A stretch of DNA of 32,121 nt, from positions 1-32,121 of the IMG/VR virus record IMGVR_UViG_3300031367_000003; one strand, given 5' to 3'. Below, in pieces: positions 29,873 through 30,330 of the stretch. Position 1 is the stretch's first letter; each line of letters starts with the position of its first letter. The notes below the pieces were generated by a model. The model saw nothing but the letters and a program-made list of their open reading frames with translations, had not been told where the DNA came from and searched no databases. The position numbers and the translations under genes were made by a program. Source of the stretch: a virus.

Positions 29873-29971
29873 CTAAGTTAAAATCAGGGCAAATAGCCCC
29901 ACCAACCACACTACGAGAAGCAGGAGGGCCAGCGACCCGAGTGCGGCTTCTGGCCCTCGCTGCTCGCTCAC
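29873..29971 (-). CDS. 32-residue single-pass membrane peptide
   Basis: GTG at 29971 overlaps the RebB-like gene's TGA (GTGA). It reads VSEQRGPEAALGSLALLLL (Met at first position when translated) and goes on with a hydrophobic span up to FALILT. One clear membrane helix of about 20 residues with a polar N-terminus. Coupling to rebB makes a joint role, or a lysis role, worth testing. Confidence 0.55.
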   Translation of the reverse strand: MSEQRGPEAALGSLALLLLVVWLVGLFALILT

Positions 29972-30330
29972 TTATCCGGCGTCACGGGCGGGGTATTGCC
30001 GGCCGCCTTGGAGCTCTGCTGATTCGACGCAATCACCGCCAACAGCTGCGCGAGCTGCTGACCCAGATCGTTGCCGCTCATCTCCTTGCTCACGGAGATC
30101 GCCTCGCTCGGGTCGGCGTTCAGCAATAGGTTCACCGCCTGCGTGACGATGGCGTTGCTGATCTGCTGCATGGCCTGCTGCTGTGAAACGGCGTTCTGGA
30201 TCGACAGACCGGCCGCGCTGGCCGCCATCTGAGCCAGGTTAGCGTTGGCAGCCGCGGCCGAGCCGGCAATTGTTTTGACGTTGTCGATCGTTACTGAATC
30301 GACGACTTGGGGACTCACTACATCAGCCAT
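29968..30330 (-). CDS. rebB: RebB-family (R-body type) protein
   Basis: A 120-residue protein. Residues 5-72 follow the RebB pattern: VDSVTIDNVKTIAGSAAAAN, LAQMAASAAGLSIQNAVSQQ, QQISNAIVTQAVNLLLNAD, with the family features D-x-V-T-x-x-N-V-K, G-L-x-x-x-N-A-V-x-x-Q-Q and A-x-x-T-Q-x-V-x-L-L. RebB proteins polymerise into R-bodies, coiled ribbons that unroll on a pH change. Only one homologue is seen here; Caedibacter R-bodies need several. It lies directly after the holin gene, preceded by a structured gap. The C-terminal 45 residues are a polar tail. Confidence 0.75.
   Translation of the reverse strand: MADVVSPQVVDSVTIDNVKTIAGSAAAANANLAQMAASAAGLSIQNAVSQQQAMQQISNAIVTQAVNLLLNADPSEAISVSKEMSGNDLGQQLAQLLAVIASNQQSSKAAGNTPPVTPDK

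Follow-up and report, generated by a model that had tools for sequence, protein, structure and literature searches.

A lone, divergent Reb-family gene in the lysis cassette of a siphovirus-like phage, and the Reb N-terminal signature in unrelated viral proteins

Results

Lysis cassette and flanks of the Reb gene

The window, that is the whole stretch of DNA analyzed here, is a viral record of 32,121 bases that is classed as linear in IMG/VR. One side of the contig encodes RecT, an exonuclease VIII-like protein, a helicase and replication genes, and the minus-strand late block includes a tape-measure protein of 1136 aa and fibre-like genes; the contig is siphovirus-like. Judged by a 485-aa protein, the nearest named phage is EBPR siphovirus 2 (27%), whose genome is without a Reb gene, and IMG/VR single-protein scans with two tail-region proteins of the window found no kin. 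Within the minus-strand block at 14901-32121, the upstream part of which is truncated by the contig end, the lysis genes precede the fibre-like and tape-measure genes in transcription order, which is unusual. Two fibre-like proteins of 252 aa (28754-29512, minus strand) and 378 aa (25623-26759, minus strand) are alike over an N-terminal region of ~75 residues, and the GC3 values of their genes, 0.51 and 0.56, respectively, lie below those of most other late genes.

R-bodies are coiled protein ribbons of bacteria, and a member of the Reb protein family is encoded in the lysis region of this phage (Table 1). The holin has a GTG start after GGAGG and overlaps the lysozyme stop, and the Reb open reading frame (ATG at 30330, TGA at 29968) lies 107 nt downstream of the holin on the same strand with its own Shine-Dalgarno sequence. 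The original prediction had placed a RebB-type gene right after a holin and a lysozyme, and this arrangement is borne out, with the weak lysozyme match and the holin directly upstream.

Table 1 Features of the phage lysis region and example viral loci that carry the Reb signature peptide
Feature	Position	Strand	Remarks
77-aa ORF	31515..31748	-	one N-terminal hydrophobic stretch; upstream of lysozyme; assigned by reading
SLT-like transglycosylase/lysozyme, 216 aa	30848..31498	-	weak PF01464 match, E 0.04, below cut-off
Holin (GTA_holin_3TM / phrog_3427), 137 aa	30438..30851	-	phrog_3427 8e-21; GTA_holin_3TM 6e-9
Reb leader	30355..30431	-	between holin and Reb ORF; two perfect inverted repeats that interlock, 11 bp (30421-30431/30390-30400) and 10 bp (30402-30411/30355-30364)
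Reb-family (PF11747) gene, 120 aa	29968..30330	-	RebD-like core (residues 1-72) and 48-aa tail
32-aa GTG ORF (VSEQRGPEAALGSLALLLLVVWLVGLFALILT)	29873..29972	-	one hydrophobic segment; overlaps Reb stop; putative
Terminator-like region after Reb ORF	29885..29966	-	strong hairpin with arms 29950-29958 and 29924-29932, then GGGGCTATTTGCCCTG-ATTTTAACTT
Next gene after Reb, 83 aa	29608..29859	-	without family match
Signature locus L329	946-2283	+	two copies
Signature locus L249	6564-7739	-	
Signature locus L272	6557-7561	+	
Signature locus L313	4457-6517	-	

The layout of the two leader repeats suggests an H-type pseudoknot or a mutually exclusive, attenuator-like arrangement, and the fold energy of the leader does not differ significantly from that of shuffled sequences (z -0.3). 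Because the leader carries these repeats, control of the Reb gene may be separate from that of the holin. The stretch directly after the Reb ORF folds much better than shuffled sequences (z -4.3, 0/200), and its stem ends in a T-rich tail. An Rfam search of the flanks found nothing. A coupled one-pass membrane peptide had also been claimed at this position. A 32-aa GTG ORF does overlap the Reb stop (GTGA), just as the holin start overlaps the lysozyme stop, but it is without a good Shine-Dalgarno sequence and may be no gene, because it lies wholly on the significantly folded, terminator-like stretch.

Family membership of the phage protein

Pfam RebB (PF11747) matches residues 9-73 of the phage protein with an E-value of 2.1e-14 and 53.8 bits, well above the curated cut-off of 24 bits, such that the proposed RebB-type identity of 29968-30330 is upheld by a significant profile match. 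A six-frame RebB search of the viral record recovers the same ORF at E 2.5e-16 as the one match in this 32,121-base linear fragment, which agrees with the earlier statement that the window holds no recognizable partners. With the phage protein as phmmer query, 97 bacterial Rebs are found below 1e-4, and identity reaches ~50% to Rebs of 74-79 aa from Pseudomonas, Paludibacterium and Roseibium. The sole PHROG match is phrog_32040, and structural PHROGs are not matched. This group is the Reb family within PHROGs, because all 24 of the 24 Reb proteins tested match phrog_32040. Signal peptide, membrane span and lipobox were not seen. The GC3 of the Reb ORF (0.79) falls within the 0.74-0.82 of the tape-measure and tail genes of the same phage; therefore, the gene is settled in the phage genome and is no fresh insertion. 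The ORF is thus a genuine, divergent and lone Reb-family member within a phage lysis cassette. The gene is new as a carrier, and R-body formation is a putative property only.

Subtype, signatures and predicted structure

When the core (residues 1-73) was scored against subtype profiles, it reached 66 bits with short RebD-like proteins, 42 bits with structural Rebs and 27 bits with the Kordia-type third gene. These scores reject the Kordia/Lysobacterales "third gene" Reb as closest kin. The best nine core matches are all short Rebs, and a first tree placed the phage protein inside a nine-row short-Reb clade with support of 99/94; a second, smaller tree did not resolve its placement, and the phage protein has a long branch. 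Pairwise scores against the three Caedibacter proteins put it nearer to RebB than to RebD, its length of 120 aa is not RebD-like, and its tail gains only ~8 bits with structural Rebs by profile comparison. With the long branch as a caveat, the protein may be read as a RebD-like core joined to a Reb-type tail.

The signatures of primary Rebs, namely QITD(N), KxxxD/E, flanking prolines, NAV and QQ(Q), were named in 2026 (PMC13430693). NAV and QQ(Q) are present in the phage protein as QNAVSQQQ. QITD(N) is missing; QVVD stands in its place with Q and D kept, and the N-terminal signature is a degenerate copy, VSPQVVDSVTID. KxxxD/E is likewise missing (KTIAG), and of the two prolines that flank QITD, P7 is present and the APA proline is replaced by A. 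An AlphaFold2 model (pLDDT 71, pTM 0.30) predicts helices at residues 7-71, 74-84 and 88-110. This all-helical prediction, a 65-residue helix and two short ones, is as reported for Rebs and matches other Rebs, and it is uninformative on assembly. A BFVD fold search gave no meaningful match, as is to be expected of a single helix, and a profile search found no Reb structure in the PDB.

Searches for further Rebs in phages, plasmids and bacteria

The phage protein is rich in Ala and Gln, and tblastn results of "no match" with it as query are void, because the BLAST low-complexity filter masks the query completely. A Roseibium Reb (L071:4155-4376), which detects the phage Reb at 2.7e-12, served as surrogate. 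With this query the survey of phage genomes that had been suggested along with the original prediction came out negative, as 0 of 50,697 GenBank phages match (tblastn, E up to 1). Two profile scans of IMG/VR did not find a second whole Reb at the sensitivity reached; these scans require an exact short peptide, and divergent phage Rebs may escape them. The pattern QNAVxxQQQ in IMG/VR returned 57 chance stretches and no Rebs, and none of 47 signature-carrying viral records holds a Reb over the Pfam cut-off. Three candidates (L210, L211 and L212) proved to be a ribonucleotide reductase, a DUF3310-like protein and a membrane protein with the signature peptide only. In the published surveys, reb genes were sought in phages and prophages in 2013 and none was found (PMC3583457), and a 2026 survey of the Reb family leaves phages unmentioned (word count 0; PMC13430693).

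Rebs occur on 17 of 72,556 PLSDB plasmids, including Caedibacter pKAP298 (L358), which is a positive control. In this plasmid set (hits H27-H43), a 57.5-kb plasmid of Candidatus Bealeia paramacronuclearis has five Reb-matching places. Several rebs lie together in nearly all cases among the sampled bacterial genomes. Three-gene clusters in Acidobacteriota, Lysobacterales and Kordia (L094, L136, L144) have in common a third Reb that is divergent and extended at its C-terminus.

The Reb N-terminal signature in unrelated viral proteins

The IMG/VR matches to Reb profiles are unrelated proteins that carry only the Reb N-terminal signature. A direct viral scan with the pattern N-x-Q-I-T-D-x-V-T-Q returned at least 120 viral stretches (IMG/VR loci L214-L333), and the signature [VI]N[DPS]QITD[AS]VTQ was found in ~36 clusters of unrelated proteins on at least 120 viral contigs, none of them a Reb. 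Among the matches listed, the peptide lies in the inter-domain linker of endolysins, near the C-terminus of a gp32-like SSB and in the C-terminal part of RecT, and a cupin, a CHASE2-cyclase, DUF3310 proteins and a T7-type capsid assembly protein are among its other carriers. The 122 copies among the matches listed are encoded by 96 different DNA sequences that draw on all synonymous codons, and therefore the constraint acts on the signature peptide itself. Positions that the pattern left free are restricted as well: among the matches listed, the first is D/P/S in 114/122 copies, the second is A/S in 120/122, and N is preceded by V/I in 111/122. Counted once per cluster among the matches listed, the same preferences hold in 31/36, 34/36 and 31/36, respectively, and for the A/S position p is ~1e-25 over these 36 clusters under an assumed background of 16%.

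The reversed pattern matched nothing, and 200 column-permuted motifs gave 0 matches in 3.1 million residues of viral loci; chance may account for a few of the signature clusters, for example L260. In the bacterial genomes sampled (398 of Pseudomonadota, 198 of Bacteroidota), the signature occurs 29 times, each time in a Reb protein. At the peptide site of the cyclase, another loop is present in the homologues from Methylophilales phage Melnitz and Pelagibacter phage HTVC008M, and the records of both phages are without the signature peptide anywhere. A tblastn search of GenBank phages with a 32-aa signature repeat gave no match and is uninformative, the peptide being too short for significance. 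The signature peptide was not found in any paper of the literature searched.

Discussion

A fundamental question is what a lone Reb would do for a phage. We tentatively favor, at rather less than even confidence, a model in which a siphovirus-like phage captured a bacterial reb of the short RebD type that carries a structural-Reb-like tail and has retained it at the end of the lysis cassette, behind the SLT-like enzyme and the holin and ahead of the terminator. Reb would probably be made late, together with the holin, as a small cytoplasmic helical protein that presumably self-associates. Alone it would most likely build no full R-bodies, and it more probably would act as a late-infection accessory whose helical assemblies aid or time lysis. 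This model builds on the family, the RebD-like core, the position, the late-strand context, the terminator-like end and the phage-like composition described above. The position beside the lysis genes could be incidental, because no related phage carries the gene and could reveal a conserved lysis linkage.

The original prediction further proposed a mechanical action, and one alternative is that the phage protein forms ribbons by itself, which would break the host open mechanically during lysis or be directed at a grazer. The Reb-family core with NAV and QQQ, the adjoining holin gene, the weak likeness between the tail and structural Rebs (+8 bits) and alphaproteobacterial Rebs that match the protein in full length (36-37% over 100-115 aa) are all consistent with such ribbons, but this is a single gene, its core is RebD-like, and the protein lacks QITD, KxxxD/E and the second proline. 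Caedibacter R-bodies have two main structural Rebs and PA14 needs rebP1P2 (PMC8322103), and five genes are essential in Azorhizobium (PMC13430693). Moreover, RebD is dispensable for Caedibacter R-bodies, and R-body preparations from PA14 did not contain it at a level that was found (PMC8322103). Ribbon-driven lysis is unlikely because a lone Reb stands against the clustered rebs of bacteria and RebD is dispensable for, or absent from, R-bodies, and we regard self-made ribbons as quite improbable. The earlier interpretation therefore stands as to family, place in the lysis region and missing partners, while its mechanical reading is weakened by the RebD-like core, the single gene and the three missing signatures. 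A late, self-associating accessory that is directed at lysis or at the host is more likely. A host-directed role could take the form of a moron in a phage of a reb-bearing host, the product of which co-assembles with or caps the host Rebs and thereby blocks or hijacks the host R-body system. A lone RebD-like protein suits the accessory of a host polymer better than it suits a self-sufficient one, rebs are clustered in nearly all sampled bacterial genomes, and the wide occurrence of the Reb N-terminal signature in viral proteins makes phage-Reb interplay plausible; against this, the signature of the phage Reb itself is degenerate, and we consider host targeting doubtful.

Could the lysis genes be mere chance neighbours? 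A virion or assembly component, such as a helical scaffold or an injected protein, would fit the late strand, the place upstream of tail and fibre-like genes and the polymerization of Reb proteins (PMC8322103). Yet structural PHROGs are not matched, the sole match being the Reb family phrog_32040, and no related phage shows a Reb gene, and such a component is as improbable in our view as self-made ribbons. The finding of no other phage with a Reb gene would also suit a recent or chance insertion without function, but the frame is open, NAV/QQQ are conserved, the composition matches that of the phage, and the family match is still kept despite strong divergence from bacterial Rebs, which together leave this the least probable explanation. 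Our preferred reading is still the captured lysis accessory. With a phage-held Reb, the extensive horizontal transfer of reb genes gains a concrete carrier, and the old link between R-bodies and phage-like particles becomes testable.

The spread of the signature peptide is a more surprising lead than the phage Reb itself. One idea, which we hold to be rather unlikely, is that viruses make wide use of the Reb N-terminal signature as a portable peptide for assembly or docking and that the phage Reb stems from the same Reb-phage traffic. If true, R-bodies and phages would have a common binding code, with phage proteins, for example, docking on or decoying a common partner. The peptide in many unrelated phage proteins is undescribed in the literature searched, and it offers a short handle to find what the signature binds.

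Comparison with known systems

The phage Reb resembles lysis accessories such as spanins and antiholins in its position beside endolysin and holin, but it differs from them in that no membrane span or lipobox was seen and no sequence relation exists. With phrog_32040, the function of which is unassigned in PHROGs, it has the family in common, and no Reb was found among the GenBank phages. Structural Rebs (RebA/RebB, RebP1/P2 and alphaproteobacterial proteins such as those in L366) are similar to it in their length of 115-122 aa and in a tail that aligns weakly, whereas overall identity is only 34-39%; moreover, structural Rebs occur in groups of at least two, which in Pseudomonas are accompanied by regulators and RapA, whereas the phage Reb is alone. 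The short RebD-type Rebs are represented by C. taeniospiralis RebD and PA14_27685 and here by L071:4155-4376, L073:4585-4809 and L146:2725-2949. The phage Reb departs from this type in its 48-aa tail, its degenerate QITD and its solitary place in a lysis cassette as opposed to a bacterial reb cluster, but it is like RebD-type proteins in having NAV and QQ and a single long helix, and it is ~50% identical over a 70-residue core to the short Rebs of L071, L073 and L146.
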